Position numbers and translations under genes: made by a program
From: Nitrospira sp.
GTDB taxonomy: Bacteria; Nitrospirota; Nitrospiria; Nitrospirales; Nitrospiraceae
Reading direction: 5' to 3'
NCBI GenBank assembly: GCA_029194535.1
Contig: JARFXR010000001.1
Coordinates: 1,062,721-1,126,720, forward strand
DNA length: 64,000 bases
In this document: positions 6,462 through 52,144 of the stretch, one piece after another
Numbering within the stretch: position 1 is the stretch's first letter
How the letters are laid out: each line of letters opens with the position of its first letter
Notes under the pieces: generated by a model
Databases searched by the model: none
Told to the model about the DNA's origin: nothing
The model's input: only the letters and a program-made list of their open reading frames with translations

Positions 6462-6481
6462 GCCGACGGCCGACCCGTTCG

Positions 6482-28478: not shown

Positions 28479-31400
28479 ATGTTTCCTCATCAACAAGAGG
28501 TTCGTGTTCCTACCCGCATTCTCGGCGCAATGGCAGCCGCGACCCTACTCTGGGTCCCGCTCGCGTCCGCTGAGAGTTCCCCGTCGCACGTCGCGATGAA
28601 TCATCAGCTTCCCGCGTGGGCGGAGCAGCTGAAGGGACAGACCATTGTCGAAGACACGATGTCCGGGAAGGGAGATCGGGCCGCAATGGTCGAGCAGCAG
28701 CATCAGCGCGTCATGGAACATCTGGCTCAAGACCCGCAGATTCAGGGGATCAACACGGGCATGTACAATACCACGTCCATGATGCACCAGTATGGAGCCG
28801 GTGGTCAGGACATGCTCCTGGTTTCCGATCCACGAGTGGAGCCGGTTTCTACGACCGGAGGTGGAAAGTGTCCCGCGACTGCGCCGGTCAAGCAGTATAA
28901 CGTGTCAGCGATCAACGTCGAGATTACGCTCAACCAATGGCTCGATTTTTATCCTGGGTATATGTATGTCCTGGAGGAGAATCTCGACAAGGTCCGGGCG
29001 GAAGAGAACAAGAACAAAGAAGCTCGTGAAAAGGAGGGCTTCGATCCGGGCGCCGTCATTCCTGGCGTGCAGGCGCAATGGATTCAACCGCTCGTCATTC
29101 GCGGCAATCAGGGCGACTGTGTCAAGATCAAGTTGGCCAACAAGCTGGAAGAGGGAGGGGGGCCGGTCAGCCTGCACATTCACGGATCCAGCATGGTCGT
29201 GAGCGCCACGGGTGCCGCGGCGACGACGACCAATCCCGACACGATCGTCGATGAAAAGAAGAGCGTCGATTTTGAGTGGTATATCCATCCCAGCACACAG
29301 GAAGGCGTCCGCCAGTTCCATACCTTCAGCCAGGATCGCGAATTGACCGTCATGGGCATGTTCGGCGCATTCGTGGTCGAGCCGAGAGGATCGAACTACC
29401 TCGAGGCGCTGGGCTCCGGAGACGCGACGCCTGCCAACAGCGGTTGGCAGGTCATGATCCAAAACGGCACCGGGCCGGACTTCCGCGAGTTCGTGCTGAT
29501 CTACCACGAGGTCGGTGACGAGGCGTTTCGGCCGGTCAACAAGAAGGGCGACTTCCTTCCTCAGCGCGACCCCTTGACCGACGCCTACCGTCCGGGCGGT
29601 CGGGCGATCAACTATCGCAGCGAGCCCTTCGGCATCAACAACATGCATGTGCAGCACGAATATTTTGGTTTCGAAGACGAGTCCATGGGGTATAGCTCCT
29701 ACACTTTCGGCGATCCATCCCCGACGATTCCCCGCTCCTATATGGGCGATCCCGCGAAGTTCCGGCTGGTCCACGGCGGTTCGGAGGTGTTCCATAGCCA
29801 CCACCCGCACGGAGGAACGATTCGGTGGCCGCGCAGCCCGCGGGCGATCGACGATATGAATCTTTGGGCCACGGCCGTCAACGGACCGGTCAAGTATCCG
29901 GTGATCCGCCATAAGACCGATCGCGTCGATGTCGAAGTCATCGGCCCGTCAGAGGCTCTTGACCTGGAGACGGAGTGCGGATCAGGGCTCTGCCAGCAGC
30001 TCGCCGGCGACTTCCTCTTCCATTGTCACGTGGCACATCATTATGTGGCAGGGATGTGGGGTTACTGGCGTGTGTACAACACGATCCAGCAGGGGGATTT
30101 GCGCAACGATGTCATGCCGGATTTGCGCGAACTCCCCGATCGCAAGGGCCGCATCAAGACTCCGATCTCGTCCGACAAGCTCATCGGCCAGACCGTCGAT
30201 TGGTTCGGCAGTCAGTTCAAGATCGTGGACAAGGGGAAGAGCAACTGGAAGGGGAATCCGGCCACGATTACGATCAAGGATTGGGTTGAAATGCAGCTCC
30301 CCACGGCCGGGAAGCCCGGGCACAAGGATGACGAGAAGGGCCAGATCGTCTCCTACGATGCGACCGTGCTCGATTGGATCTGGGAAGGCACTCGTGCCAT
30401 GAGCGAAAAGGAGAGCACGACCGATAACCCAAAGTATAAATCCACCCATCCCGGCAAGCGGCATCCGATCATGTTCGAACCGCTGACGGGAAAAGTGGCG
30501 TGGCCCCATCTGACCCCCCATTTCGGCAAGCGCGTCATGTTCTCGCCGAACCATGTCGGGGCGCCCTGGTTGGAGATGATCCGCCGGGATGCCGGCGGCG
30601 ATGAAAGTGTCGATCAAGCGGTGCCGGGTGAAAATGGCAACTGGAGTCTCTGTCCGGTCAACGCTGGACGCAAGAACTACAACGTCCATTTCATTAAGCT
30701 GCCCATCAAGATCGCCAAGGCTCAGGGGAAGGAGCCGCCGGTCGTGGATCCGAACGGGTTGATCTACGTGCTCCACGAAGAAGAAGCGGCAATCAGGGCG
30801 AACGACGACTTGAAGTATCCGCTGGTCGTTCGCGGCAACATCTACGATTGCGTGGACTGGACGTTGACCAGCGAGTGGGACGACGACGACTACACGAATT
30901 TCCAGTCCTCGAAGATCAATACTCACTGGCACTTTCTGCAGTTCGACAACCAGGCATCGGACGGCGTGATCACGGGCTTCTCCTATGAACAGTCCGTGCG
31001 CCCGTTCACGATGCTGGAAAAGAAAAACGCCAAGGGCCTTCCGGCCCCGATGAACACCGTGTTATCGGCCGCCGCCAAAAAGGGGACGACCACCCTCACG
31101 GTGAAGAATGCTAAGCAGTACCATGTGGGCATTCTGATTCTCGTGGGCGCCGACAATGTGAAAGGCAACGAGGTTTCCCGCATCAAGGCCATCAACGGCA
31201 ACACCATTACGCTGGCCAAGGGACTCAAGAACGATCATCCGGCGAACGATATCGTGACGGTGGAATTCGTCCGGCAGCGGTTCTGGGTCGATGCGGACGT
31301 GGGGACCGTGTTCTGGCATGATCACGCGTTCGGCGCGACCACGTGGCCGCACGGCGGATTCGGCACGTTTATCGCCGAGCCGGTCGGCTCGACGTATCAC

Positions 31401-33323
31401 GATCCCAAGACCGGGAAGCTTGTCTGGAGCGGCCCGATTGCCGACATCCATACCAACGAGCCGGTGGGACACGGTGTGAATAACAGCTTCCGTGAACTGA
31501 TGGTGCAAGTGCACGATACGGTGCCGCATACCGTGAACATCGTGACGGCGGGCAATCCGCCGGGTCAGCCGGTCGAAGTAGCGCTGGAGGCGGGCAAGAC
31601 CGTCTCGTTCATGATGCCGGAGAAACTGTACATGACGCCGATGCCGTTCCTGAACGGCGGAACCCACACCACGGGAAGCGGCTTGAACTTCCGTGCGGGT
31701 CCGATCGCTCAGCGGTTGGCGACCAACCCCGATGTGTCGCAGGCGTTCAACAGCCAGATTCACGGGGATCCGTATACGCCGCTGCTGCGCGCCTATACGG
31801 GAGATACGATGGTGTTCAGGCTGTTGCATACGCTCATGAACGAGACGATGACCTGGACCCTCTCCGGTCACACCTTCTGGTCGGAGCGTTATGCGTCGGA
31901 TGCGAACCGTAAGAACTCGATCCATATCGGGATCGCCGAGCGGTACGACCTGGTCGTGCCGGAAGCGGGTGGCCCGCGGCACCTGGCCGGAGACTACATT
32001 CACTTTAACGGCCGGTCCTCGAAGTTCTCCGAAGGCGGTTGGGGCATCATTCGCGTGTACGACAAGGAGCAGGCTGATCTGAAGAAACTGCCGGCCGGCT
32101 TCTCGGTCAAGGGCGAGATTCCGAAGGCGTTACCGGTTTGCCCGGCCGATGCGCCGGTCAAGACGTTCAACGTCGTGGCGATGGATTATCCGTCCATGAA
32201 ATTCAACGCGAAGGCGCCCGAGTCGATCGAGGTAGACTTCGAGCGAAAGATTCAGATCACCAATCCCGAGGCTAAGATCTATGCCTTGGAGGAAGATGTC
32301 GCCAAGGTGTCCGGAGAAGCGCAACCGATGCCGCTGACGCTCCGCGTCAATGTCGGCGATTGCGTGAAGGTCAATCTGAAGAACAAGATGAAGGGCAGCA
32401 AGGCGTCTTTCTCGGCCATCGGGTTGGTCTTTGACCCGAAGGATTCGATGGGCGCCAATGTCGGCAACAACCCCGGCGATCAGACGATCGCCGCCGGCGG
32501 AGAGCGGACCTACACCTACTACGCGGATCCGTTCAACGGCGAGACCACGTCCCTGGTCTGGGACTGGGGCAACGTTATGACCAATCCTCGCAACGGTCTG
32601 TTCGGGGCGATCGTAGTCGGTCCGAAGGGTTCCAAGTATCGGGATCCCAAGACCGGCGCCGATCTGACGAACAAGAATGCCTGGGCGGCGGACGTGATCA
32701 TTGATCGTACCGTGCCGGGCAATGAGATGAGGGCAAACTATCGCGACGTCGCCCTGTTCTTCCAGGACGAAGACAACATCATCGGCACGAGCTTTATGCC
32801 GTATGTGCAGAACGTTGCGGGCCTCACGGGCATCAACTATCGGTCGGAGCCCTATAAGTATCGCGAGGAGCAAGGCTGTTCCCTGGGCAAGGTCTTCCAG
32901 CCCTGCAAAGTGGACAAGCCGGAAGATCCTGCGACTCCGATCATCGAGTCACATGCCGGAGATCCTGTTCGGATCCATGTCATCGGAGCCAATAACGAAC
33001 AGAACGGCATGTTCAGCATCGAGAAACATGAATGGCCGATTGAGCCCTTCATGCGGGGCGCCGACCAAATCAGCGTGGTCGAGTTCTCCGGTTCGGAAGT
33101 GCTGGATGCGTTCGTGTCGTCGGCGGGCGGACCCTATCGCCTGCCCGGGGACTACGTGTACAGCAACCAACGGTTGCCGTACTCCCAGTCCGGTCAGTGG
33201 GGCTACCTCCGCGTGTTGCCGTCCGGCGACCAGAGGTTGTTGCCGTTGGCCGGTGCCGGTGCCGGGATGAAGAGTGCATCGCTGGAACAGGCAGCGCACG
33301 CCATTCCGGTCGCGACGAAATAA
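28479..33323 (+). CDS. giant multicopper-oxidase-like protein, three tandem units
   Basis: 1614 residues, exported (signal peptide to about residue 30). It consists of three units of paired cupredoxin domains. Unit 1 keeps copper ligands: HIH (233-235), a His-rich HSHHPH (439-444) and HCHVAHH (His515, Cys516, His517, His521) with Met526, a full type 1 site. Unit 2 keeps HWH (816-818) and HDH (947-949), but its closing segment near 1171 reads GDYIHFNGRSSKF instead of GDFLFHCHVAHH, so the type 1 Cys is gone. Unit 3 closes with GDYVYSNQRLPYSQ near 1557 and lacks nearly all ligands. Likely a periplasmic or surface oxidase of metals or small molecules; the substrate is unknown. Has its own promoter and is ended by two hairpins. 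Confidence 0.88.
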   Translation: MFPHQQEVRVPTRILGAMAAATLLWVPLASAESSPSHVAMNHQLPAWAEQLKGQTIVEDTMSGKGDRAAMVEQQHQRVMEHLAQDPQIQGINTGMYNTTSMMHQYGAGGQDMLLVSDPRVEPVSTTGGGKCPATAPVKQYNVSAINVEITLNQWLDFYPGYMYVLEENLDKVRAEENKNKEAREKEGFDPGAVIPGVQAQWIQPLVIRGNQGDCVKIKLANKLEEGGGPVSLHIHGSSMVVSATGAAATTTNPDTIVDEKKSVDFEWYIHPSTQEGVRQFHTFSQDRELTVMGMFGAFVVEPRGSNYLEALGSGDATPANSGWQVMIQNGTGPDFREFVLIYHEVGDEAFRPVNKKGDFLPQRDPLTDAYRPGGRAINYRSEPFGINNMHVQHEYFGFEDESMGYSSYTFGDPSPTIPRSYMGDPAKFRLVHGGSEVFHSHHPHGGTIRWPRSPRAIDDMNLWATAVNGPVKYPVIRHKTDRVDVEVIGPSEALDLETECGSGLCQQLAGDFLFHCHVAHHYVAGMWGYWRVYNTIQQGDLRNDVMPDLRELPDRKGRIKTPISSDKLIGQTVDWFGSQFKIVDKGKSNWKGNPATITIKDWVEMQLPTAGKPGHKDDEKGQIVSYDATVLDWIWEGTRAMSEKESTTDNPKYKSTHPGKRHPIMFEPLTGKVAWPHLTPHFGKRVMFSPNHVGAPWLEMIRRDAGGDESVDQAVPGENGNWSLCPVNAGRKNYNVHFIKLPIKIAKAQGKEPPVVDPNGLIYVLHEEEAAIRANDDLKYPLVVRGNIYDCVDWTLTSEWDDDDYTNFQSSKINTHWHFLQFDNQASDGVITGFSYEQSVRPFTMLEKKNAKGLPAPMNTVLSAAAKKGTTTLTVKNAKQYHVGILILVGADNVKGNEVSRIKAINGNTITLAKGLKNDHPANDIVTVEFVRQRFWVDADVGTVFWHDHAFGATTWPHGGFGTFIAEPVGSTYHDPKTGKLVWSGPIADIHTNEPVGHGVNNSFRELMVQVHDTVPHTVNIVTAGNPPGQPVEVALEAGKTVSFMMPEKLYMTPMPFLNGGTHTTGSGLNFRAGPIAQRLATNPDVSQAFNSQIHGDPYTPLLRAYTGDTMVFRLLHTLMNETMTWTLSGHTFWSERYASDANRKNSIHIGIAERYDLVVPEAGGPRHLAGDYIHFNGRSSKFSEGGWGIIRVYDKEQADLKKLPAGFSVKGEIPKALPVCPADAPVKTFNVVAMDYPSMKFNAKAPESIEVDFERKIQITNPEAKIYALEEDVAKVSGEAQPMPLTLRVNVGDCVKVNLKNKMKGSKASFSAIGLVFDPKDSMGANVGNNPGDQTIAAGGERTYTYYADPFNGETTSLVWDWGNVMTNPRNGLFGAIVVGPKGSKYRDPKTGADLTNKNAWAADVIIDRTVPGNEMRANYRDVALFFQDEDNIIGTSFMPYVQNVAGLTGINYRSEPYKYREEQGCSLGKVFQPCKVDKPEDPATPIIESHAGDPVRIHVIGANNEQNGMFSIEKHEWPIEPFMRGADQISVVEFSGSEVLDAFVSSAGGPYRLPGDYVYSNQRLPYSQSGQWGYLRVLPSGDQRLLPLAGAGAGMKSASLEQAAHAIPVATK

Positions 33324-33394: not shown

Positions 33395-33427
33395 GGGGGA
33401 GGCTGTAGAGCCTCCCCCTTTTTCTTT
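33395..33427 (+). terminator. rho-independent terminator
   Basis: A 10-bp GC-rich stem (33395-33404 with 33409-33418), loop GTAG, then TTTTTCTTT. Second of two hairpins closing the multicopper oxidase transcript; the cupredoxin gene starts about 90 bases downstream. Confidence 0.88.
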
Positions 33428-33515: not shown

Positions 33516-34427
33516 ATGAAACGGGTTGCGCTGCTAGGGCTCTGGTGGTGGCTGACGATCGGGGCCTCCTTCGCTTGGGCTTACGAAGAGGTGCCGGTCG
33601 TCGATGGAGGTACCGTCGCAGGGAAGATCCGGATTACCGCGGGGAAAGCCACGCCCAAGGGATTCAACTTGATCACATTTCCCGATCCCGTCTATTGCGG
33701 TCGGATTTCAACCGGAACGGGCTGGCGTATTCTGAAGGAATTTGATGTGGCGGCCGACGGAGGGCTCAAGGACGTTGTCGTGTGGCTGTCTGACGTCGCA
33801 AAGGGGAAACCGTTCAAGTTCGAACCTCAAACGATCGAGGCCAGAGATTGCCGGTTTCTCCCGTTTGTGACGGTGGTCCAGGATCGGGCGGATGTGATCA
33901 TCATGAACATGGATCCGGTGATGCACGATATCCAGGCCTACGAGACGTCTCATCTGGGTCCCCGTGTGCTGTTCAACACTCCGCTCCCCATGAATCCTCA
34001 TCATAAGCGCAAGGTTGGAGCCGATTCCCATGAGCATCTCGCCGGTGAACCGGTGAAGGAGACGATTCACATGACGAAAGGCCGGAAGTTTTTCGTCATG
34101 CAGTGCGGATTCCATGCGTACATGGAAAGCTGGGGGCTGGCCATCGAGAACCCCTATTATCACGTGACTGGAACAGACGGCACGTTTTCATTGGCCGACG
34201 TGCCGGCCGGGGAGTATGTGCTGACGGCATGGCATCCAGGCGTCGGGACCGTATTGGAGAAGAAGATCACAGTTTCCGCGAAGGAGACGGTGCAGGCCGA
34301 TTTTCTGTTCGAATCCCCCAAGGGACGGCGAAGCGCGCACGAAATCGAGGAGAACCCGCACTTCGGGCTGCAAGCGTTGGGGAAGGCGGTCGACATCCGG
34401 CCCACGCTTGAGCTGCAGGTCCCCTGA
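33516..34427 (+). CDS. secreted cupredoxin / carboxypeptidase-regulatory-like protein, copy A
   Basis: 303 residues from ATG 33516, behind CTGGAGG; the open frame reaches further upstream without a ribosome site. Signal peptide to about residue 24. A beta domain begins GGTVAGKIRITAG; a cupredoxin-type copper site follows with His137 (DPVMHDIQ) and CGFHAYM (Cys197, His200, Met203), spaced as in amicyanin; a carboxypeptidase-regulatory-like sandwich ends the protein (GTFSLADVPAGEYVLTAWHPG). It is a close paralog of the next gene and shares KGFNLITFPDP and YCGRIS with it. Probably a periplasmic copper electron carrier near the multicopper oxidase. Sometimes annotated as methylamine-utilisation-like. 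Confidence 0.8.
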   Translation: MKRVALLGLWWWLTIGASFAWAYEEVPVVDGGTVAGKIRITAGKATPKGFNLITFPDPVYCGRISTGTGWRILKEFDVAADGGLKDVVVWLSDVAKGKPFKFEPQTIEARDCRFLPFVTVVQDRADVIIMNMDPVMHDIQAYETSHLGPRVLFNTPLPMNPHHKRKVGADSHEHLAGEPVKETIHMTKGRKFFVMQCGFHAYMESWGLAIENPYYHVTGTDGTFSLADVPAGEYVLTAWHPGVGTVLEKKITVSAKETVQADFLFESPKGRRSAHEIEENPHFGLQALGKAVDIRPTLELQVP

Positions 34428-34454
34428 ATGATCGGACGCCAGGGAGAAAGGGGA

Positions 34455-35384
34455 ATGATGATGCGACACCGATTCGCAGGTGTGCTGTTCGCAAGTTTGG
34501 GGGTCCTGTGCGGTTGGCCTGCTGGCCTCGGCTTTTCCTATGACGTCGTTGACGTGCAGCATGCGGGAACCATCGAGGGCACGGTGGTCCTCGACGGACC
34601 GGTTCCCGAGCCGAAGGGGTTCAACCTCATCACCTTTCCGGACCCGGCCTACTGCGGACGCATCTCCAACGGGCAGGGATGGCGGCTGCTGTACGACTTC
34701 GTCGTGGGCGAGAACAACGGGCTGAAGGATGCGATTGTCTTGCTGGAAGGTGTGGAGGCCGGTAAACCCTTTGAGGTCTCCGTACCATTGATCGAGGCGC
34801 GCGACTGCATGTTCAAACCCTTCATGACGATCGTGCGCAATGGGCATGCTGTCGAAGTGATCAACATGGATCCAGTGATGCACGACATTCAAGGATACGA
34901 GACCTCCATCGAGGCTGGGGCCCGAGTCCTGTTTAATACGCCGTTGGTCATGAATCACCAGCACCGTCGCGGTGATCTCCATGCCATCCACAATCATGCC
35001 CCCGGCAAGTCTCTCGTCGGACCGGTGTATCTCAACAGGGGGCGCAGGACGTTTTACATGCAATGTGGGTTTCATGCCTACATGGAGAGTTGGGCCATGG
35101 CGGTGAACAATCCCTATTACACGTTGACGGACGGTAATGGGAAGTTCACGATCGGAGACGTTCCTCCCGGCACGTATCAACTGGTTGTGTGGCATCCGCA
35201 GACGGGGCCCGGCACCGCGAAGATGGTGACCGTGCAAGCGGACGGCACGGTCGTTGAACATCTGTCCCTGCCGGCGCCCAAAGGGAATCGCACTTCCTAT
35301 AAGGTCATGCACAACCCCCGTTTCGGACCGGAATCGCTCGGCTATTCCGTGGAGATCAACCCGCTTGTCGAACACCAGCACTAG
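34455..35384 (+). CDS. secreted cupredoxin / carboxypeptidase-regulatory-like protein, copy B
   Basis: 309 residues from ATG 34455, behind AGAAAGGGGA; an in-frame ATG at 34428 touches the stop of copy A. Same layout as copy A: signal peptide, a beta strand block with GTIEGTVVLDG, the shared KGFNLITFPDP, His143 (DPVMHDIQ) and CGFHAYM (Cys204, His207, Met210), and the closing GKFTIGDVPPGTYQLVVWHP sandwich. A tandem duplicate of copy A: the copper ligands are all kept, the loop between them differs (HNHAPGKS, extra His). Co-transcribed with copy A. Confidence 0.8.
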   Translation: MMMRHRFAGVLFASLGVLCGWPAGLGFSYDVVDVQHAGTIEGTVVLDGPVPEPKGFNLITFPDPAYCGRISNGQGWRLLYDFVVGENNGLKDAIVLLEGVEAGKPFEVSVPLIEARDCMFKPFMTIVRNGHAVEVINMDPVMHDIQGYETSIEAGARVLFNTPLVMNHQHRRGDLHAIHNHAPGKSLVGPVYLNRGRRTFYMQCGFHAYMESWAMAVNNPYYTLTDGNGKFTIGDVPPGTYQLVVWHPQTGPGTAKMVTVQADGTVVEHLSLPAPKGNRTSYKVMHNPRFGPESLGYSVEINPLVEHQH

Positions 35385-35477
35385 CCGAGACGGATTCAAT
35401 GACCACGCTCACCTGCCGGGATCGATGCATTGGGGCACGTTGTTGATCGGTAACCTCGGGCTTGTAGACCCTCTCGG

Positions 35478-36230
35478 ATGATCGTGCAAGACAGCGGGAA
35501 GTGCCGCGCGGCCGGATCGCGATGGAGAGCCTGGTTGTCGGGCAGAGCCAGAACGCCGCTCCGAACGGCCACTTCTCTGATTCGCCGGACAGTGCTCGCG
35601 CGGGGCGCGTATCTACGGAGGAGGAGATGCCCTGGCCTCGCGCTTACGATGGTTCTGTGTGTTGCAGGTCCGGTCGGTTCGGCCCAGCCAGAACCCCCGC
35701 CCGGTATTCCTGATTTTTCCGGAAGTCTCATCAGGCAGGTGAACGGCAAACGGCATCAGGCGCAGATCTTCTCAAAAGGGAACCGGCTGCGGTTGGAGTA
35801 CAAGTACGCCGTTCGCACCGACCACGGCTACGCGGCGATTGAGATCATTAGACTCGACTTGGGAGAGGCTTGGTACGTTCTCGCGCAACAAAAAGAGCTG
35901 TTGGTCATGCCACTGAGTTCTGATGACGTGCTCCCGGTACAATCTGAATTGGTGGGGGAGCGGGAACGAATGCTGGTGGGCGATGCGACCACGGCAGGGC
36001 GTCCGACGCGGCTGTATGAAATCCGAACGGAACGGGACGGCCGGGCCGAACGATTCTACGAGTGGGTGGATGTGGAAACCGGCATCGTCCTGAAATTGGT
36101 GAGCCGAGATCGCGATTGGTCGTTTGAATATGAACGGATCCGGTTATCGCCGCAACCCGCTTTCTACTTCGACGAGCCGCCGGGATATCGGAAGCGCACC
36201 GTCGGTACGGCGCCGAAGCGGCAGGGTTGA
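35478..36230 (+). CDS. exported protein of unknown function, possibly LolA-like fold
   Basis: Up to 250 residues from ATG 35478. The first ~40 residues are Arg-rich and look non-coding; a start at GTG 35592 would give RGAYLRRRRCPG plus a hydrophobic run ending VGSAQ, a good signal peptide. The mature part is all beta with FSGSLIRQVNGKRHQAQIF, then RLRLEY, EAWYVLAQQKELLVMPL and YEWVDVETGIVLKLVSRDRDW, reminiscent of LolA/DUF4412 periplasmic sheets that bind lipids. No ligand site is identifiable. It ends just before the HEAT-repeat gene and probably shares its transcript. Confidence 0.6.
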   Translation: MIVQDSGKCRAAGSRWRAWLSGRARTPLRTATSLIRRTVLARGAYLRRRRCPGLALTMVLCVAGPVGSAQPEPPPGIPDFSGSLIRQVNGKRHQAQIFSKGNRLRLEYKYAVRTDHGYAAIEIIRLDLGEAWYVLAQQKELLVMPLSSDDVLPVQSELVGERERMLVGDATTAGRPTRLYEIRTERDGRAERFYEWVDVETGIVLKLVSRDRDWSFEYERIRLSPQPAFYFDEPPGYRKRTVGTAPKRQG

Positions 36231-36257
36231 CAGGTGTGTGAATTCCGGAGGCATCAG

Positions 36258-37652
36258 ATGACCGAAACGGTGAATCGGATATGGGCGGCGACCGCTCTCG
36301 TGATCGCGATGGGGGCGGGGGCAACGGTGGATCACCCTGCGGTTCTCGCCGCTGTCCCGAGTGATCTCCAACGATCGTACGACAGGCGGGAATACCAGAA
36401 AGTGCTGGATGAGATCGCCAAGTTGGACGGCCCATCATCCGCGACGTCCGACATTCGCCGGCTCAAAGTTCGATCGCTGCTGAAACTGAGCAATCCCAAG
36501 GAAGCGTTGGAGGAGTATGACCGGCTGGAGCGGTCCACGAACCAGGATGAGATTCCTCTCCTTCGGGATGTCGCCTTGGGGTTCATTACCGTGATGTTGA
36601 AGGACATGCGAGAGCAGATGCGCGGGGCCGCATTTACAGCGTTGAAGGAGGTCGACTCGGAGGAGGTCATTCCGTACTTTGAGGACGGGCTCAGTGACGG
36701 GTCGGGGCCCGTGCGCATGCTGGCCGTGGAAGGATTGAGCCGGACCGAAGCCGGGCGGAGTTCGCAGAAATTGCGGAGGGCACTTGACGATCAGGCCGGG
36801 CTCGTCAAGGCCCGTGTGGTGAAGGCTCTCGGGCACAGCACAGATCCGTCGGTGGTTCCGCTGCTGGAAACGGCTTCGAAGGACGAGTTGCCCACCGTCA
36901 GGATTGCGGCATTCGGAGCTCTCCTGCGGCACGGGCGCAAGGACGCGTGGGACTCCTTGCGCCGAGCGTCGGACGCCGTCAATCCGGAAGATCGGGCAGA
37001 AGCGATCCGGGTGATGGCCGATGCGAAAGATCCCCGCGCGGTGCCGATCATGGTGGAGTCCCTGACCTACAAGCAGCCGTCTGTCCGGGGTGCGGCGGCC
37101 AGGGGGCTTGGGCACCTGGGACGGCGAGAGGCGCGCGAAGATATTCAACGACTCCTGCGTGATCCAGTATCAGCCGTCCGCGAGGCGGCGGCATCCGCGC
37201 TGGCTGATCTGGCTGACAAGGCTTCGGTGCCGGCTCTCAATCAGGCGCTCCAGGACGGGGCATTTTCCGTGCGCGCCGCGGCCGCCGCCGCCCTGCTTCA
37301 ACTCGGCCAACCATTTGAGAATGTGGCGCCGACAGTGAGGGGGCTGGTTCAGCAAAGCGACACAGGCGCGAGGGCTGCGGCTGCCCATGCCTTGGGTAAG
37401 GCGACGAAACCCAATGCTGCCGGGGCGTTATCGTATCTTGAGAGTTTGGCGGCGGATCCGCTGCCGGGGCCAAAAATTGTGGCCATGCGATCGCTGGGAC
37501 GCCTCAGCGACCCTTCGATGCTTCCTCTCATGAAGGAGGCCTTGCGGGACCAGAACGAAGCGGTTCGAACGACCGCCGGAGGAGCCATCCTCCGATTGCT
37601 ACAAGGTTCGCGGGCCCCGAAGGGTGGTTTTCAGCCGGTTGGCGGCAATTGA
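36258..37652 (+). CDS. exported HEAT-repeat protein
   Basis: 464 residues from ATG 36258, behind CCGGAGG. A signal-like N-terminus (IWAATALVIAMGAGATV) is followed by a short TPR-like part (about 40-100, DRREYQKVLDEI) and then about eight to ten HEAT/PBS-lyase-type repeats of roughly 30 residues, each with the pattern VR-x-AAA-x-AL-x-L (for example AVREAAASALADLAD and SVRAAAAAALLQL). HEAT solenoids bind other proteins. Being periplasmic and between the cupredoxin genes, it may be a scaffold or assembly factor for the copper proteins; that is inference. Confidence 0.8.
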   Translation: MTETVNRIWAATALVIAMGAGATVDHPAVLAAVPSDLQRSYDRREYQKVLDEIAKLDGPSSATSDIRRLKVRSLLKLSNPKEALEEYDRLERSTNQDEIPLLRDVALGFITVMLKDMREQMRGAAFTALKEVDSEEVIPYFEDGLSDGSGPVRMLAVEGLSRTEAGRSSQKLRRALDDQAGLVKARVVKALGHSTDPSVVPLLETASKDELPTVRIAAFGALLRHGRKDAWDSLRRASDAVNPEDRAEAIRVMADAKDPRAVPIMVESLTYKQPSVRGAAARGLGHLGRREAREDIQRLLRDPVSAVREAAASALADLADKASVPALNQALQDGAFSVRAAAAAALLQLGQPFENVAPTVRGLVQQSDTGARAAAAHALGKATKPNAAGALSYLESLAADPLPGPKIVAMRSLGRLSDPSMLPLMKEALRDQNEAVRTTAGGAILRLLQGSRAPKGGFQPVGGN

Positions 37653-37676
37653 CAGCGTACTGCAAAATTTTATATA
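37649..37676 (+). promoter_or_regulatory. promoter of cupredoxin gene copy C
   Basis: TTGACA (37649-37654) overlaps the stop codon of the HEAT-repeat gene; after 16 bases comes TATATA (37671-37676). Transcription would start near 37683, with a leader of about 145 bases before ATG 37828, which has the strong site AAGGAGG. Confidence 0.5.
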
Positions 37677-37827
37677 CATGTGGGTCCAAGACCAGCCTTG
37701 CCCGCATCTCACCTATCGAGGTAACCAGGGAGGAAACGGTCAGCACGTTTCTCTCAGTAGGCCGGTGGAAGATACAGGGAAACGCGAGCCAGGAACCCGG
37801 AATTCTTAATCACAAGGAGGCAGTCCC

Positions 37828-38622
37828 ATGAAGAGTGCGTTATCAGTCGTGTTCGGTGTGGCAGCCGTCGCATTTATCGCGACGCCTGTCACCTCATTTG
37901 CCGGTGGCACCATCGCCGGCAAGGTCACCTATGCCGGGAAATCCGAGCAGAAGGAGTTTCTCTTCTCGAAGTTCCCGAACCCCAAGTTCTGTCCGAAGCA
38001 TCCCAATAAGACCTTGATGGACGGGGACAAGCGGTTCCTGAAGACCATCGAGGTCGGCAAGGATGGCGGATTGAAGAACGCCGTCGTGGCGGTCACCGAT
38101 ATTGAAGACAAGGCCTTCATGGATGGGTTCGCGGGAGCTGAAGTCACCGCGGCCTTCTGCGAATTTCTGCCGTTCAGCGGCGTGGTTGTGAACAATCGCC
38201 CCTTCAAGGTTGAAAATACCGATGCGGATCCGGATGATCCCAAGTCGACGGCCGGTGTGCTGCACAATCCCCATAGCTTCACGGTGAAGGGCTCGACGTC
38301 GGCGACCGGTTTCAACATCGGTCTTGCCAAGAAGGGCGACAAACTCGACAAGCCGGTGACCTTCCGCGGTGGTGCCGAGAAGGAAGGCTACTATCGGCTG
38401 CAGTGCGACCAACATGAGTTCATGCAGTCCTTCTTCCTTCCCGTGTCGAATGCGCATTATGCCGTGGTGAAGGAAGACGGTTCGTTTGAGCTCAAGGATG
38501 TGCCGGCCGGTAAGCACAAAGTCACAGCCTGGCATCCGTTCGTCGGTAAGGGCAAGAAGGTGGAGTTCGAGATCGAAGTTCCGGAAGGCGGGACGGCGAA
38601 TCTGAAGGCCGAACTCAAGTAA
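37828..38622 (+). CDS. secreted cupredoxin / carboxypeptidase-regulatory-like protein, copy C
   Basis: 264 residues with a clear signal peptide (AVAFIATPVTSFAGG). Same overall plan as copies A and B but more diverged: GTIAGKVTYAGK, then a Lys-rich block with KFCPKHPNKTL, a candidate upstream His (146 or 149, in LHNPHSFTV), the copper loop CDQHEFM (Cys193, His196, Met199) and the closing SFELKDVPAGKHKVTAWHPF. Has its own promoter and terminator and a very strong ribosome site, so probably the most highly expressed of the three. A periplasmic copper carrier is the best guess; the electron donor and acceptor are unknown. Confidence 0.82.
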   Translation: MKSALSVVFGVAAVAFIATPVTSFAGGTIAGKVTYAGKSEQKEFLFSKFPNPKFCPKHPNKTLMDGDKRFLKTIEVGKDGGLKNAVVAVTDIEDKAFMDGFAGAEVTAAFCEFLPFSGVVVNNRPFKVENTDADPDDPKSTAGVLHNPHSFTVKGSTSATGFNIGLAKKGDKLDKPVTFRGGAEKEGYYRLQCDQHEFMQSFFLPVSNAHYAVVKEDGSFELKDVPAGKHKVTAWHPFVGKGKKVEFEIEVPEGGTANLKAELK

Positions 38623-38658
38623 TTCGAACGGGTTCTCGACGGCTACCTCGTCGATGGT

Positions 38659-38696
38659 GAAGGGCAGCGGATGTTTCCGCTGCCCTTCGTGTTTTT
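38659..38696 (+). terminator. rho-independent terminator after cupredoxin copy C
   Basis: A perfect 13-bp stem (38659-38671 with 38676-38688), loop TGTT, then GTGTTTTT. About 36 bases after the stop codon. Confidence 0.88.
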
Positions 38697-41232: not shown

Positions 41233-42285
41233 ATGTTGCATCGGATGGCATTACGGGTTTTGCCCAGTCTCAGTCTTGCCGTGACGGAGGACACGATCCG
41301 CAAGAAAAAGCGGATCGTGATGTTTGTGCCGGGGATGGTCGCTTTCGTGTGCCACCGACTGGCTAAGCACGTCCTCCCGATGTCCGAGCCATGGGTACTG
41401 CTCCTGCTCAGCGGCCTGTTGGGACTCGCGACCGCCCTGATTGCCTATCGGGTCGGCCGCGCCTGCGACTGGCGGAGGATGAGTGCACAGGACGGAGCAG
41501 TTCTGCTGAGTTGGATAGCCGGTTGGATCGGCTTTGTCTATGCCGTACAGCTGTCCCTTTTGGTCCTCGCGTTGCTCTGGCTCGTGGGATACGACTATCT
41601 GCAACATCCGGACGGACCGGCGATGATGGCGATGATCATTCCCTCCACCGCCGTGGCTCGCGATGCTTTTGAGATCGGTCATGTCAGGAGCATGTTGCTG
41701 ATGGGGCGTCCCTTCGCCACCTTTCCGAACGGGGCCTCTCTCCGGGAATTGGTCGGTTCCCGATCCGCACCGTGGGCATCCTGGGCTGCGACAGGTTTGA
41801 TCGCCGGTGCTCTCGGCGCCTCGCTCGGCCATCTTATGCACACGCAGCAGGCCGTCGTGATGGTGCAGTTGGCTGCAGTGACCCTTGTCGGAGGGACGAT
41901 CGCGTTGTGCGCCTATTTCAGCGGAATGCGACCGCAGGTGCCATGGACGTCCGGTTTGCTGTCCACCAAGGCCAGCGAGTCGCTGAAGTACTGGTGGTGG
42001 CCCGGTATGGCCTTCGCTTCTACCTACTATCTGGTCGCCGCAGGCGTCGTCATCTTTGTGGCGAGAGAGCCGGGTGTTCCAACATGGTACGCGGCGGCGG
42101 GTGGTGGAATGGTTGCCGCGCTCATGGGCTTGTACGGTTATTACTTGGGCCATCGGCGCCATATCGAGGATCAATTGGCTCCAGAGGTCAGTACGGCGAT
42201 GCTCCGCTGTCCGTTTGTCATGGGCATATTGGGAAAGTCCGGCGCGGGCGGCCGTTTGGCCGCGTCATCAACATCAAAGGTCTGA
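41233..42285 (+). CDS. multi-pass membrane protein of unknown family
   Basis: 350 residues from ATG 41233; the frame is open a few codons earlier. Seven or eight hydrophobic helices, beginning with a soluble RKKKRIVMFVP stretch. Cytoplasmic-side segments contain several His and Cys (FVCHRLAKHVL, GHLMHTQQAV, YYLGHRRHIEDQ), which could bind heme or metal. I do not recognise the family. It ends four bases before the ATG of bd-like oxidase 1 and is probably part of that transcript and perhaps of that complex. Confidence 0.6.
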   Translation: MLHRMALRVLPSLSLAVTEDTIRKKKRIVMFVPGMVAFVCHRLAKHVLPMSEPWVLLLLSGLLGLATALIAYRVGRACDWRRMSAQDGAVLLSWIAGWIGFVYAVQLSLLVLALLWLVGYDYLQHPDGPAMMAMIIPSTAVARDAFEIGHVRSMLLMGRPFATFPNGASLRELVGSRSAPWASWAATGLIAGALGASLGHLMHTQQAVVMVQLAAVTLVGGTIALCAYFSGMRPQVPWTSGLLSTKASESLKYWWWPGMAFASTYYLVAAGVVIFVAREPGVPTWYAAAGGGMVAALMGLYGYYLGHRRHIEDQLAPEVSTAMLRCPFVMGILGKSGAGGRLAASSTSKV

Positions 42286-42289
42286 CGCG

Positions 42290-44161
42290 ATGGTTGGTTC
42301 AACGACAAGCTTTCTACGCGTGGTAATGCCGCTGTTCTTCATCGGTCTTCTCACTGTCGCAGGGGGGTGGGTGGGCATAACTCCCCCGGCGGCGGCTGAT
42401 GGCGGCGCCGATATCTATTTCAAGACGGAGGGTGTGCCGCAAGGGCCGCCGGCTCCGACGCCTCACGAGACGGTCTACTCACGGATCGGTTCGATGGACA
42501 GTCGATTGCTGGTGTGGTTTGTGACGCAACAGCACACCTATTTCGGAGGATTCGTTCTCGCGCTGCCCTTGTTCTGCGCCTTGCTCGAATTCATCGGACT
42601 CATTACGAAAAATCCTTCCTCGTCGCTCCGGTACGACGGGTTGGCAAGGGACTTGGCCAAGGTCGCGCTCTTGGCCCTGTCGGTTACGGCCGTGGTCGGA
42701 AGCCTCATGCTGGGCCTGTTCATCTGGTTCTACCCGAGTTTCATGAAGTACATGGGGGGAACCTTCAAGGATTTCATGCCCGCCTATGCCATTGTCTTCC
42801 TCGGCGAATCACTGTTGCTGATTCTCTATTACTACAGTTGGAATCGGATGGCGGAGCCGGGGTTGAAATGGGTCCATGCGGCAATCGGCATTCTGACGAA
42901 TATATTCGGGACCGCTCTGCTGTTGCTGGCCAATGCCTGGTCCGCATTCATGATGGCACCGGCCGGGGTCGATTCGGCGGGACGGTTCTTGGGCAATGGC
43001 TGGCACCTCTTGCATTCCGCATTGTGGAATCCTCTGAATGTCCATCGATTCCTCGCGGACATCATGTCCGGAGGAGCCGTCGTGCTCGCCTACGCGTGCT
43101 ATCGGTTCTTCACGAGCAAGACCGACGGAGAGCGGGCGTACTTCGATTGGGTCGGCTACATCTTTCTCTTCGTCACCGTCTGCGCCTTGCTTCCCATGCC
43201 GATCGCCGGCTACTGGCTGATGCGCTCCGTCTATGCCTTCAGCCAAAGTATGGGCGTAACGATGATGGGCGGGTTGCTCACCTGGTTGTTCGTCGTGCAG
43301 GCGCTCCTCATCGGCGCGCTCTTTCTGGGTGTGAACTACTACATCTGGCAGGGCATGGCCCGGATCAAAGGAGGGGAGCGGTATCAGCCCTACTATCAGA
43401 TTTTGCTCGGTGCGCTGACGCTCGCGCTTTTCGTGTGGTTGACGCCCCATACCGTCTTGATGTCGGCGGGCGAACTCAAGGCTATGGGAGGAGCCCAGCA
43501 TCCCGTTGTCGGGAATTATGGCGTCATGTCGGCCAAGAACGGTGCGATCAACGTCCTGATTCTTCTTACAACGCTCAGCTTTCTGTACTACCGACGGGCC
43601 AATCGTACGATGACCGTTTCCTGGGTCAATGCGGGAAATATCGTGATTGGCCTGCTGTTTGCGGTGGGGTTCATCAATGTGATTTGGCTTTCACTGTACG
43701 GCTTCTATCTGCCGGCGAAAATACGCGTTGGTCTATCGGCCCCACAGGCCGCGACGACCCTGACCGTGATTCTTGCGTCCGTGTTGATCAACCGCGCCAT
43801 GCTCAAGCATGCGATCGTCCATGGACCGGTTCAATGGGGCAAGATTCCGGTCCGCGGCATGGTCGGCCTCTTCGGGCTGGCAGCGGCGTTCACGTGGGTG
43901 ATGGGCCTCATGGGCTACATCCGTTCATCAGGACGCTTGTCATGGCATGTAACCGACGTGATGGCCGATGTGTCACCGTGGGCGTTCACCCCGGATCTCG
44001 AGTTTGCGGCGAAAATGGTCACGCTCAACATGGTGGTGTTTTGGGGGGCCGTGTTTGCCCTGTTCTGGATGTGTCAGCGCGGTCAACGGGAAGCGTTCGG
44101 AGAAGAGTTTGACGAAGAGAAATCGCCGACACTGGCTCCCATTCCTTCTCAGGAGGGGTGA
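42290..44161 (+). CDS. cytochrome bd-like oxidase subunit 1, long type (oxidase 1)
   Basis: 623 residues from ATG 42290 (upstream frame is inside the previous gene). Signal-like first helix, then the loop DIYFKTEGVPQGPPAPTP and about 13-14 membrane helices. Heme-ligand His82 lies in QQHTYFGGFVLALP; other conserved blocks are LWNPLNVHRFLAD, PIAGYWLMRSVYAFSQ, TPHTVLMSAGELKAMGG and QHPVVGNYGVMSAKNG. The Q-loop signature of classical CydA (GRQPW) is absent. This matches the Nitrospira type of bd-like oxidase in which extra helices and possible additional metal ligands suggest electrons come from cytochrome c, not quinol. No CydB is next to it. It is paralogous to the gene at 47704. Confidence 0.85.
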   Translation: MVGSTTSFLRVVMPLFFIGLLTVAGGWVGITPPAAADGGADIYFKTEGVPQGPPAPTPHETVYSRIGSMDSRLLVWFVTQQHTYFGGFVLALPLFCALLEFIGLITKNPSSSLRYDGLARDLAKVALLALSVTAVVGSLMLGLFIWFYPSFMKYMGGTFKDFMPAYAIVFLGESLLLILYYYSWNRMAEPGLKWVHAAIGILTNIFGTALLLLANAWSAFMMAPAGVDSAGRFLGNGWHLLHSALWNPLNVHRFLADIMSGGAVVLAYACYRFFTSKTDGERAYFDWVGYIFLFVTVCALLPMPIAGYWLMRSVYAFSQSMGVTMMGGLLTWLFVVQALLIGALFLGVNYYIWQGMARIKGGERYQPYYQILLGALTLALFVWLTPHTVLMSAGELKAMGGAQHPVVGNYGVMSAKNGAINVLILLTTLSFLYYRRANRTMTVSWVNAGNIVIGLLFAVGFINVIWLSLYGFYLPAKIRVGLSAPQAATTLTVILASVLINRAMLKHAIVHGPVQWGKIPVRGMVGLFGLAAAFTWVMGLMGYIRSSGRLSWHVTDVMADVSPWAFTPDLEFAAKMVTLNMVVFWGAVFALFWMCQRGQREAFGEEFDEEKSPTLAPIPSQEG

Positions 44162-45267: not shown

Positions 45268-46185
45268 ATGGAAAACAGAGGCGTGCTCATTGGATCGATC
45301 ATTTTCGTGTTCGGCTCCTTCGCGCTCATGATCGGCATGATGCTCTGGGAGTCGAATAAGGCCTATAAGATGAAAGAACTGGCTCAGTCTATTAAGACTG
45401 AAAGTCGGCCGACTGAGAGCGCCGGCCCGACACAGGACTACTCCATGTACAAGACGAGAATCGGTGATGAAGGACGGGAGATGGTGCACATCCCCGAGGG
45501 ACCGTTTTCCATGGGGAGTAACGATGGAGATCCAGACGAGGCTCCGGAGCACCAGGTGTTCCTGAAGGGATTCTACCTTGATCGCAAGGAGGTCACGCAA
45601 GACGAATATGCCCGCTTCGCTAAAATGACAAGACGGCCGATGCCGAGGATCGAAGTGTTCGAAGACGATCAGTCGAAGCTGCTGAAACCAGAGTTCGCCG
45701 CGATGAGCGTGTCCTGGGACGACGCCTATGCGTACTGCAAATGGGCAGGGAAACGGTTGCCGAGCGAAGCGGAATGGGAGAAGGCAGGGCGCGGGGAAGG
45801 TAAGCGAAAGTATCCATGGGGAGAGGCCTTCGTCACGGGGCGGGCCAATGTGGACGGAAGTGAAGACGGGTATCGGTATTTGGCGCCGCCCGGTTCGTTT
45901 GATGCGGGCCGAAGTCCCTATGGTCTGCACGATATGACAGGCAACGTGGCGGAATGGGTCGCCGACACCTATGATGAGAAGTATTACAAGAAATCCCCGT
46001 ATCGAGATCCCAAGGGGCCAGAAAGCGGAGATTTGAAAGTCGTCCGTGGGGGGTCATGGAGAGAAACCGAACATAATACGAGATTGTCGAAACGCTTCGC
46101 CGCCAAACACTGGCGGACCGACATCACGATCGGTATTCGTTGCGCCAGCGATGCCGAGGCCGGAGGAAACTCGTCGGCGTCATAG
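45268..46185 (+). CDS. membrane-anchored sulfatase-modifying-factor-like protein 1 (no catalytic Cys)
   Basis: 305 residues. One N-terminal membrane helix (GSIIFVFGSFALMIGMML) then a linker and an FGE-sulfatase (formylglycine-generating) fold: MVHIPEGPFSMGSNDGD, YLDRKEVTQDEYARF, VSWDDAYAYCKWAGKRLPSE, YGLHDMTGNVAEWV and VVRGGSWRE. True FGE enzymes have a Cys pair in the segment after the GGS; here that segment reads TRLSKRFAAKHWRTD with no Cys, and only the terminal GIRCA is kept. It is therefore likely a periplasmic binding or structural protein, as in many bacterial members. It is followed by a second copy nine bases on. Confidence 0.85.
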   Translation: MENRGVLIGSIIFVFGSFALMIGMMLWESNKAYKMKELAQSIKTESRPTESAGPTQDYSMYKTRIGDEGREMVHIPEGPFSMGSNDGDPDEAPEHQVFLKGFYLDRKEVTQDEYARFAKMTRRPMPRIEVFEDDQSKLLKPEFAAMSVSWDDAYAYCKWAGKRLPSEAEWEKAGRGEGKRKYPWGEAFVTGRANVDGSEDGYRYLAPPGSFDAGRSPYGLHDMTGNVAEWVADTYDEKYYKKSPYRDPKGPESGDLKVVRGGSWRETEHNTRLSKRFAAKHWRTDITIGIRCASDAEAGGNSSAS

Positions 46186-46193
46186 CCCCGGAC

Positions 46194-47096
46194 ATGCTCG
46201 AAACCAAATTCAAGGTCGCCTTCCTGCTCACCGTGATTGCCTTTGCTGCATTGCCCATTATGGGCATTCTTCGCGGGACATCTCTAACGCCGTTAGAAGA
46301 TTCCTCTCTTCAGACTGAGTCGACTCCTGAGCCGTTGGAGGTCGATGCCAAGGAAGATCCCATCGGCGAAGACATGGTCGCAATTCCCGCCGGGCCGTTC
46401 TTGAGAGGAACGACGGACGGGGGATTTGACGAGTTGCCTCAGCGCACGATCGCGCTGGATGGCTTCAAGATCGATCGCTACGAAGTTACAAACTATCAGT
46501 ACCAGCAGTTCGTGGCGGCCACGGGTCATCGTAAAGCTGGACCGCCTTCGCGTTATGCCAAGAGCATCGGCAAGATGCGCGGGACCAATCAGCCGGTCGT
46601 GTACGTCTCCTGGGATGATGCAGGCGAATATTGTCGTTGGAAGGGCAAGCGATTGCCGACTGAAGCGGAATGGGAAAAGGCTATGCGGGGAACCGACGGA
46701 CGGCTCTGGCCATGGGGCGATCGTGAGCAGCCGAACGGAGCCAACTGGGCAAGGGTGAATGACGGGTATGACGTGTCAGCACGGGTAGGATCCTTCTCCT
46801 TGGACAAGAGCCCATATGGGGTCATGGACGGCGCCGGAAACGTGATGGAGTGGGTGGAGGACTGGTATGCGGAGACGTATTACCAAGATTCTTCTCAGCA
46901 GAATCCCAGGAGCCCGGAATATGGCACCTATCGTGTCTTGCGAGGGGGGGCCTATACGACCACAGGCCACGACTTGCGTATTACCAGCCGAAGCAAGATG
47001 GTGCCGGACTTTCGTGATGAGACTATCGGATTTCGGTGCGCGATTTCGGACCAGAAAACAGCTGGAAAAAATGATGGAACTAGCGGAAAGAATTAA
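46194..47096 (+). CDS. membrane-anchored sulfatase-modifying-factor-like protein 2 (no catalytic Cys)
   Basis: 300 residues from ATG 46194 (frame open from 46140). An N-terminal hydrophobic helix (VAFLLTVIAFAALPIMG), then the same fold as the previous gene: MVAIPAGPFLRGTTDGG, IDRYEVTNYQYQQF, VSWDDAGEYCRWKGKRLPTE, YGVMDGAGNVMEWV, RVLRGGAY. The segment that would hold the active cysteines is DLRITSRSKMVPDF, so again no enzyme. A tandem paralog diverged from the first; together they flank the small-membrane-protein block of oxidase 2. The 3' end overlaps the minus-strand small gene by four bases. Confidence 0.83.
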   Translation: MLETKFKVAFLLTVIAFAALPIMGILRGTSLTPLEDSSLQTESTPEPLEVDAKEDPIGEDMVAIPAGPFLRGTTDGGFDELPQRTIALDGFKIDRYEVTNYQYQQFVAATGHRKAGPPSRYAKSIGKMRGTNQPVVYVSWDDAGEYCRWKGKRLPTEAEWEKAMRGTDGRLWPWGDREQPNGANWARVNDGYDVSARVGSFSLDKSPYGVMDGAGNVMEWVEDWYAETYYQDSSQQNPRSPEYGTYRVLRGGAYTTTGHDLRITSRSKMVPDFRDETIGFRCAISDQKTAGKNDGTSGKN

Positions 47097-47628: not shown

Positions 47629-47703
47629 GGTTCTCACTGCGATTCCGTGAATGTCTGGAACTTTGCCATGAGTCTTTGTTGTATTGCATCAAGGAGGTAT
47701 CCC

Positions 47704-49704: not shown

Positions 49705-51015
49705 GTGGGTAATCTGATTAACGAGGCCCTTTCGATGGGGTGGATGGTCCTGGCCATTCTCGTCGGGCTGCTCATTTACTTCCAGGTCTCCATCCCCGAT
49801 CCCGCGGCAAAGAAGCGGGCGGTATTCAAGACTTTTATCGGCATCGTCGCCGCGTTCTTAATGTTCATCGCGATCGCGAATTACAAGAACAATTTTTACG
49901 GAGAGAATCGGTTGTTGCCGGTCTCCCTCGTCATGATCACGGCGACGACGTTTGTGATGGCTCTGTATTTCACCAATCTTGCTGCGTTGCTGAAGATCGG
50001 TGGATTCATGTTCTTCGTGGCGGCCTTCCTCTCCGGGTACGGAAACTGGTTGCCTCAAGTAGAAGGAGGATTTCCTCCCAAGGAAGAGAAGTTGGACTTT
50101 AGTTCGATGACACCTCAGCAGTTGGCCGACGAGGGCGAGAAGATCATTTTCGGAGGCATCGGTCAGAACAAGGTCCAGGGTGCGATCGGTAAGGGACAAT
50201 GTCCTCTGTGCCATGCATTCCATGCGGGAATGTTGGGTGAACGGGCGCCTAACCTTCTCGGTCTTCCGGAGCGTGCGGGCAAAGAGCGACTTGAAGACCC
50301 GAAGTATTCCAAGGGCAATCCTTCTAAGCGGGAGTATGCGGATAAAGAAGCCTTTCCCGGATCGGGAACAGCGGAGAATGGCCAGGAGTACATTGCCGAG
50401 TCTCATTCATGCCCCAGTTGCTATGTCGTTGCAGGGTACGGTGTGAAGGGAACCAACGACAAAGAGAGCCCGATGCCCAAGATTCACAAGCCACCGATCT
50501 CGCTCTCGCTGCCTGAACTGGCGGCCGTGGATACGTGGTTATATGTCCGTGAAGGACGTGAGTCGCCTTCTTTTGAGGAAATCACCAAGTCCTATGAGAA
50601 GTTCATTCCGGAAGCTGAGCGTCCGAAAATGCAAGAGGACAAGCCGGCGGCCGCAAGCGCGTTATTGGCCGACGGGTCCGAACCGGTAGACCAGATTTTT
50701 GCCAAGGCGCAGTGCGTCGTCTGTCACACGATTCCTGGTATACCCGGTGCCACCGGTACCCAGGGACCCAAGCTTGAAGAGGGGACGAACGCACCGACCA
50801 GAATCAAAGATCCTGGCTACAAGGGCGCCGCGCACAGCACTCCCGAGTACATCATGGAATCGATCGTCGAGCCCAGCACCTACGTGGTGAAGGGATTCCC
50901 GGACAACCTGATGCCGAAGGTTTTCGGCCAGAAGCTCAGCGCGGGGGCGCTGAAGAAGATTGTCGACTACCTGTCGCAGGTGAAGGCGGGAGCACCGCCA
51001 CCCAAGATTTCCTAA
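49705..51015 (+). CDS. membrane-bound diheme c-type cytochrome (oxidase 2 operon)
   Basis: 436 residues from GTG 49705 behind AGGAGG. The N-terminal ~110 residues form three or four membrane helices (GWMVLAILVGLLIYF; TFIGIVAAFLMFIAI; VMITATTFVMALYF; IGGFMFFVAAFLSGYG). Two cytochrome c domains follow with CPLCH (Cys166, Cys169, His170) and CVVCH (Cys337, Cys340, His341); Met in SPMPKIH and LMPKVFG are likely distal ligands. A third Cys pair, CPSCY at 236-240, sits where the second domain has EPSTY, beside the Met loop, so it is not a heme site but may be a disulfide or other metal site. Likely electron-delivery subunit for oxidase 2. Confidence 0.88.
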   Translation: MGNLINEALSMGWMVLAILVGLLIYFQVSIPDPAAKKRAVFKTFIGIVAAFLMFIAIANYKNNFYGENRLLPVSLVMITATTFVMALYFTNLAALLKIGGFMFFVAAFLSGYGNWLPQVEGGFPPKEEKLDFSSMTPQQLADEGEKIIFGGIGQNKVQGAIGKGQCPLCHAFHAGMLGERAPNLLGLPERAGKERLEDPKYSKGNPSKREYADKEAFPGSGTAENGQEYIAESHSCPSCYVVAGYGVKGTNDKESPMPKIHKPPISLSLPELAAVDTWLYVREGRESPSFEEITKSYEKFIPEAERPKMQEDKPAAASALLADGSEPVDQIFAKAQCVVCHTIPGIPGATGTQGPKLEEGTNAPTRIKDPGYKGAAHSTPEYIMESIVEPSTYVVKGFPDNLMPKVFGQKLSAGALKKIVDYLSQVKAGAPPPKIS

Positions 51016-51057
51016 TTGTTGCGGTTTATCGTTCGAAGACTAAGAGGGAGTTAACCC

Positions 51058-52095: not shown

Positions 52096-52144
52096 TAGGC
52101 CGAAGGCTTTTTCGATAACCTGGACTTAGATGAAGAGGATAAAC

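Follow-up and report, generated by a model that had tools for sequence, protein, structure and literature searches.

The route of electrons between nitrite and oxygen in Nitrospira has yet to be settled. Its oxidases are non-standard, and in passages of three papers (PMC3578206, PMC12342949, and PMC10579370) carriers are proposed without biochemical proof. We analyzed a stretch of 64,000 nucleotides of a Nitrospira sp. genome (GCA_029194535.1, contig JARFXR010000001.1, positions 1,062,721 to 1,126,720; here called the window), in which three genes raise the question of what such a carrier might look like. Coordinates are those of the window unless a locus is named. The genes A, B, and C and their parts, the neighboring MCO, 250-aa ORF, and HEAT-repeat genes, the bd-like oxidase and cytochrome c genes, the promoter-like element, and the hairpins described below all lie on the forward strand. 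Gene A (33516-34427, 303 aa) was delimited by its open reading frame (ORF) and translation and is followed by gene B (34458-35384, 308 aa) and, further downstream, by gene C (37828-38622, 264 aa). Our reading is that A, B, and C are probably periplasmic type 1 copper electron carriers, each with a cupredoxin domain nested in a sandwich domain. They may be missing wires of the Nitrospira respiratory chain, and they provide concrete, order-wide candidate carriers with a testable active site. As an example of domain nesting, too, a redox domain within a sandwich of the prealbumin type is a clear one.

The original prediction, made from the DNA sequence of the window, was that all three proteins carry a C-x2-H-x2-M motif, an upstream His, a DVPAG or DVPPG turn, and a W-H-P motif. 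All of these are present in the translations. In A, the ligand set is H137 (codon 33924-33926), C197 (34104-34106), H200 (34113-34115), and M203 (34122-34124), and the turn is DVPAG and the W-H-P motif AWHP. B has H142, C203, H206, and M209, with DVPPG and VWHP, and C has H146 (38263-38265), C193 (38404-38406), H196, and M199, with DVPAG and AWHP. The predicted residue numbers were right for A and C, but those for B (204/207/210) were off by one because they had been counted from a Met codon at 34455, one codon upstream of our start (a further Met codon is at 34428). All three proteins begin with hydrophobic, signal-like stretches, as judged by eye from the translations, and are predicted to be secreted.

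The ligands are conserved. We compared 198 homologues, which were the three window proteins and 195 of the 197 ORFs from 80 genome loci that matched a hidden Markov model (HMM) of the family (two short ORFs were left out). The upstream His, the Cys, the second His, and the Met were each present in 198/198 and always in the order expected of the cupredoxin superfamily. N131, D133, C61, C112, and H240 (A numbering) were also present in every homologue. The loci had been fetched with the patterns QC[GD][FQ]H[AE][YF]M and VMHDIQ-type, and C-x2-H-x2-M was also a filter, so the 198/198 conservation is partly by construction; however, the neighboring family members were found by the family HMM. The sole ORF lacking C-x2-H-x2-M among the 197 was truncated (177 aa). 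Judging from these alignments, the conservation of the ligands in A, B, and C homologues is not chance. C61 and C112 were also kept throughout a wider alignment of 72 rows, and they may form a disulfide that joins the two domains.

The predicted structures indicate how the two domains are arranged. AlphaFold2 models of A and C had mean pLDDT values of 92.9 (91 aligned sequences) and 91.0 (54 aligned sequences), respectively, and their N-terminal parts were modeled with high confidence. Both contain a Greek-key cupredoxin fold. For A, the top VIA-align rows were shared by cupredoxins, which aligned to residues of about 100-211, and three prealbumin/CNA-B-type sandwiches. The cupredoxins included 4hcg (Z 10.8, rmsd 1.9, 86 aligned residues) and amicyanin 1sf3 (Z 9.4, rmsd 2.0, 83 aligned), and the sandwiches were 3is0 (Z 10.4, rmsd 2.1, 81 aligned, range 30-268), 3rkp (Z 9.8, rmsd 2.4, 90 aligned), and 3kpt (Z 9.7, rmsd 2.3, 90 aligned), the last two running from residue 30 to 267-268. 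In the C model, a plastocyanin/amicyanin fold occupies residues of about 100-207 (2plt: Z 10.7, rmsd 2.2, 87 aligned). Its sandwich matches, 6fwv (Z 9.6, rmsd 2.5, 84 aligned), 1nkg (Z 9.3, rmsd 2.5, 80 aligned, range 25-264), 8qox, and 3rkp, fall within residues 24-264.

The VIA-align evidence for nesting is in these residue ranges. The sandwich alignments (30-268 in A and 24-264 in C) cross the cupredoxin, which supports an insertion of one domain into the other. For example, the 80 residues aligned with 1nkg cover a chain stretch of 80, and C has only 58 residues past its cupredoxin, so at least 22 must come from earlier residues. On this view, the two ends of the chain together form the sandwich, and the cupredoxin is inserted between them. 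In A, its N-terminal part would be residues 30-101 (33603-33818), residue 30 being where the alignments with 3is0, 3rkp, and 3kpt start. The cupredoxin would follow at residues 102-210 (33819-34145), as placed by conservation and by VIA-align matches to plastocyanins and amicyanin, and the C-terminal sandwich part at residues 211-268 (34146-34319), where the CarboxypepD_reg (PF13620) match at 216-263 and the W-H-P motif are found. The models therefore support the view that A and C are each a single prealbumin/CarboxypepD_reg-type sandwich interrupted by a cupredoxin, and the case for this is strong, if not final. Nesting in a carboxypeptidase-regulatory-type sandwich had been part of the original prediction, and high-confidence models, structural matches, and the family profile now back it.

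The C-x2-H-x2-M spacing had been likened to that of amicyanin, and profile comparisons bear this out. A profile of 33 diverse family members found the purple cupredoxin 5fc9 as its best copper-protein match (E 3.9e-5), and it matched amicyanin chains from E 0.002 (1sf3, 0.002; 1aac, 0.013). In an hhalign comparison (probability 69.9), the family's N-x-D-P-x-x-H lay over N-R-E-A-M-P-H of amicyanin and its C-x2-H-x2-M over C-T-P-H-P-F-M. This alignment puts the family's ligands onto H53, C92, H95, and M98, the copper ligands of amicyanin. Narrower queries were less productive. PDB sequence searches with A alone or C alone returned nothing useful, a profile of the Nitrospirales cupredoxin part reached a best E of 0.41 against the PDB, and hhalign of the narrow profile with amicyanin aligned the C-x2-H-x2-M loop only (probability 1.6). 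A, B, and C thus resemble amicyanin of Paracoccus denitrificans (1aac/1sf3) in the C-x2-H-x2-M loop, the upstream His, and the cupredoxin fold. However, amicyanin is a free-standing protein of 105 aa, whereas A, B, and C are 264-308 aa long with the cupredoxin nested in a sandwich. Similarly, 5fc9, from the ammonia-oxidizing archaeon Nitrosopumilus maritimus, is a free-standing 95-aa domain. The outer domain shares its fold with prealbumin-like and CNA-B-type sandwiches (1nkg domain II, BcpA 3rkp, and UafA 3is0), but those are uninterrupted. The methylamine dehydrogenase light chain (PF02975) had no match in this genome, and the control genomes were equally silent.

The nested layout is widespread. 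Family matches occurred in 143 of 295 Nitrospirota genomes when B was the query (threshold 1e-5) and in 143/295 when a Phyllobacterium protein was used (1e-8). A also matched 49 plasmid records, mostly from Sinorhizobium, and the rhizobial member had no match in a phage collection. The Phyllobacterium member is 31% identical to A and alike in ligands and layout by sequence, but it lacks the His insert described below, and its neighboring oxidase is of the cbb3 type. Closer to home, N. moscoviensis has the protein nearest to A among named relatives (82% identity), and a further relative (L094) is encoded in record FP929003.1 of "Ca. N. defluvii." In a genome of the same class (G302, 2.3 Mb), there were 25 family matches, an unusual expansion. 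The original prediction had called the arrangement "not a usual carrier layout." The nested layout itself stands, but it is not peculiar to these genes, being the norm of a large unnamed family. Pfam, at E values up to 0.1, found CarboxypepD_reg in all 33 of the diverse members, and NCBIfam has no family for them. Annotation conceals the family, since Pfam recognizes mainly its sandwich, and many copper proteins probably go under the name "carboxypeptidase regulatory-like." The relatives on rhizobial and Caballeronia plasmids, for instance, are annotated as "carboxypeptidase regulatory-like domain-containing protein" or "methylamine utilization protein." We found no paper on a carboxypeptidase-regulatory-like plus cupredoxin architecture in a literature search that left most subscription journals outside its reach.

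A tree of 72 rows addressed how A, B, and C are related. It was built from columns in which at least 30% of rows had a residue, a cut-off that removes most of the His insert, so the grouping of A with B does not rest on it. The A and B types formed one clade of 18 rows (support 100/97), and C clustered with C-like class-level proteins (99/97). Two extra copies in this genome (L002 and L003) clustered with B, and across the order A and B made up separate orthologue groups. Therefore, the A/B split predates the diversification of the order. A and B had been described as tandem duplicates. They are adjacent, but they are old paralogues (47-49% identical and in separate orthologue groups) rather than simple duplicates. 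We reject a recent tandem duplication because, in the tree, L002 and L003 group with B.

A and B differ from C in an insert of about 20 extra residues between cupredoxin strands 150-157 and 180-184. In A it comprises residues 157-179 (33984-34052) and includes H163, H172, and H174; the corresponding residues of B are H169, H178, and H180. These three His residues were invariant in the 72 A/B-type rows of a 91-row alignment. By eye, in a separate set of 72 rows, all 18 A/B rows had them and none of the remaining 54 did; those 54 include C and class-level, phylum-level, and rhizobial proteins. The insert is a putative second metal site, and fold topology would put it close to the barrel's copper end. 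Whether A and B are two-centre copper proteins, with an all-His site (H163, H172, and H174) in addition to the nested type 1 site, is a more doubtful matter, and we consider it rather unlikely. If they are, their role could go beyond electron carriage to reactions with oxygen, nitrite, or NO, or they could pass nitrite-oxidation electrons directly to a soluble multicopper oxidase (MCO) acting as terminal oxidase. The restriction of the insert to A and B is the newest point of this analysis, and it raises the direct question of a second metal site.

What might these proteins do? We favor electron carriage because enzymes that reduce oxygen or N2O and c-type cytochromes are encoded nearby, the type 1 ligands are intact, and the N-termini are signal-like. 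The neighbors point to respiration. In Nitrospira they encode an MCO, bd-like oxidases, and c-type cytochromes; other Nitrospirota have nosZ nearby, and rhizobia have a cbb3 oxidase. A, B, and C would shuttle single electrons in the Nitrospira respiratory chain, most likely linking c-type cytochromes fed by nitrite oxidation with an oxygen-reducing partner. That partner would be a bd-like oxidase or the neighboring MCO, and the nested sandwich is probably there for docking or mounting. The gene structure, the invariant ligands, the predicted nested fold, the distribution of the family, and its conserved neighbors are results of the analysis, whereas we infer that copper is bound, what redox role the proteins play, which partners they have, and which way the electrons flow.

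Several observations weigh against this reading. Pfam found a cupredoxin domain in only 2 of the 33 family members (Cupredoxin_1 in two and Copper-bind in one), and the sandwich is incomplete in its eyes. PF13620 scored 32.5 bits on A and 36.7 bits on B, above the curated cut-off of 32.3, and 20.1 bits on C, which is below it. Instead of a complete, continuous domain, the match spans only profile positions of about 29-82, all downstream of the cupredoxin, and the models place the missing part N-terminal to it. When the two sandwich halves were joined, the score barely rose (changes of -0.1 bits for A, -1.7 for B, +1.9 for C, and +2.5 for the rhizobial protein), although the match in A, C, and the rhizobial protein (not in B) then began at profile position 9-14 instead of 30-33. 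By sequence alone, then, the N-terminal half is weakly supported. No match spanning both domains was among the top rows listed by Foldseek or VIA-align for the A and C models, but such rows do not show that none exists. The extent of the Pfam match and the small effect of joining the halves would suit a cupredoxin with a long N-terminal extension and an incomplete CarboxypepD_reg domain after it, not nested at all. However, the sandwich alignments extend from residues 24-30 to 264-268 and take in 80-90 residues, more than the 58 that follow the cupredoxin, and the N-terminal part is modeled with high confidence. We therefore regard an un-nested arrangement as very improbable.

The copper site itself is also not universal. 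Among 51 relatives, 11 lack C-x2-H-x2-M, and in other Nitrospirota the copper Cys has been lost in one protein of each pair. These Cys-to-Ser relatives (S-N-x-H-x-W-M/I/L) belong to Nitrospirota outside the class (L176, L178, L180, L181, L183, L196, L218, and L220-L223) and stand beside a Cys-bearing partner; a Ser-type protein is possibly the non-copper or structural half of the pair. Such proteins have lost the Cys but neither their fold family nor their place in the operon, as might be expected if A, B, and C were mainly structural or assembly subunits of oxidase or MCO complexes and the copper site were secondary. But all four ligands are intact in 198/198 A, B, and C orthologues, and we give this explanation little chance, if marginally more than the un-nested arrangement. 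The idea that A, B, and C are copper-handling chaperones or stores that load the MCO and terminal oxidases, with the His cluster of A and B as a transfer site, deserves more weight, though we still think it unlikely. It would account for their constant copper-enzyme company (MCO, nosZ with nosD, and the rhizobial SCO and cbb3 oxidase genes) and for the His insert in A and B. However, C has no such insert, and the full Cys-His-His-Met set in a plastocyanin-like fold, found in 198/198 homologues, is usual for an electron carrier. Exceptions in gene order also weigh against the carrier reading: the MCO-to-HEAT part is absent beside C in two loci (L040 and L053), and A is uncalled in several further loci among 20 relatives.

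The genes around A, B, and C are as follows. Upstream is a gene for a 1,614-aa MnxG-like MCO (28479-33323; Pfam Cu-oxidase_3, 1.6e-11), which scored 133.9 bits against NCBIfam MnxG (NF041487), far below the cut-off of 3100. Between B and C are an ORF of 250 aa without a Pfam match (35478-36230) and a gene for a HEAT-repeat protein (36258-37652; HEAT_2, 1.1e-56) that is a conserved neighbor. Downstream are two bd-like oxidase genes (42281-44161, in conserved order, and 47647-49620; both Cyt_bd_oxida_I) and three cytochrome c genes (49705-53920), the last with an ethylbenzene-dehydrogenase (NxrC-like) domain. Two adjoining FGE-sulfatase-like genes (45268-47096) lie between the bd-like oxidases, and similar genes occur near other MCO/cupredoxin loci. 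Parts of PMC3578206 (2013) describe an NXR/bd-like oxidase cluster of Nitrospira and Nitrospina that contains an MCO similar to the Bacillus SG-1 manganese oxidase, two cupredoxin-like proteins suggested as possible substitutes for heme carriers, and cytochromes c. By gene content, rather than by gene tags, the A/B/C cluster is of the same kind as the one in those parts of that paper. Copper carriers in such clusters are therefore a published idea. Section 19 of PMC3578206 has no description of the nested layout, and our additions are this architecture, the family that shares it, and the His insert.

C had been predicted to have its own promoter, and there is indeed a promoter-like element, TTGACA-N18-TATACA, at 37649-37678. 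A consensus scan did not report it because its last -10 base deviates. With a pattern that we defined after seeing the window, 17 of 26 loci, counting the window, had a like element no more than 190 bp upstream of C, and in 9 it was not found. Terminator-like hairpins lie between the MCO gene and A (33395-33418) and after C (38657-38690, 15 pairs). Both carry T-runs, and such hairpins are no commoner in the region than in shuffles.

Among the 20 relatives, the arrangement MCO, A, B, OM, HEAT, C, methyltransferase, DUF420 is seen again, with gaps; L043, for example, has MCO-A-B-OM-HEAT-C. In the 80 genome loci, many of which end at contig ends, the MCO adjoins A or B in 74, A and B are adjacent in 72, HEAT adjoins C in 47, and C adjoins the methyltransferase in 41. 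This genome has a second MnxG-like MCO (positions 1950-6878 of locus L239), 67% identical to that of the window and located beside the A/B-type copy L003. FGE-sulfatase-like genes follow this second MCO. The other copy, L002, adjoins complex-I-like membrane genes, as judged by eye. In other families of the class, an MCO stands beside A/B-like genes in L232, L233, L234, and L236, and L231 has a C-like gene near a bd-like oxidase and FGE genes, whereas L235 does not.

Outside the class, a pair of family members adjoins a bd-like oxidase, two cytochromes c, and an NxrC-like cytochrome in three of four stretches (L228, L229, and L230); the fourth (L237) does not show this arrangement within its length. 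All four contain nosZ, and the family genes sit between nosZ operons on one side and, in those three stretches, the bd-like oxidase and cytochromes c on the other. More broadly, nosZ (PF18764) was found in 22 of 295 Nitrospirota genomes, 19 of which carry the family. By hand tally, among the 16 genomes with a strong nosZ match (E below 1e-30), a family member was within 20 kb and on the same contig in 12, on another contig in 3, and absent in 1. This suggests a link between the family and N2O reduction in other Nitrospirota classes. PF18764 had no match in the genome studied here, and 14 control genomes were also silent. In the Phyllobacterium plasmid locus (L136), the family member is accompanied by genes for SCO, GroEL, 5-aminolevulinate synthase, and a cbb3 oxidase. 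According to PMC3578206, Sinorhizobium SM11 and Nitrospina have odd oxidase residues in common. By eye, a locus of S. meliloti SM11 (L137) resembles that of Phyllobacterium.

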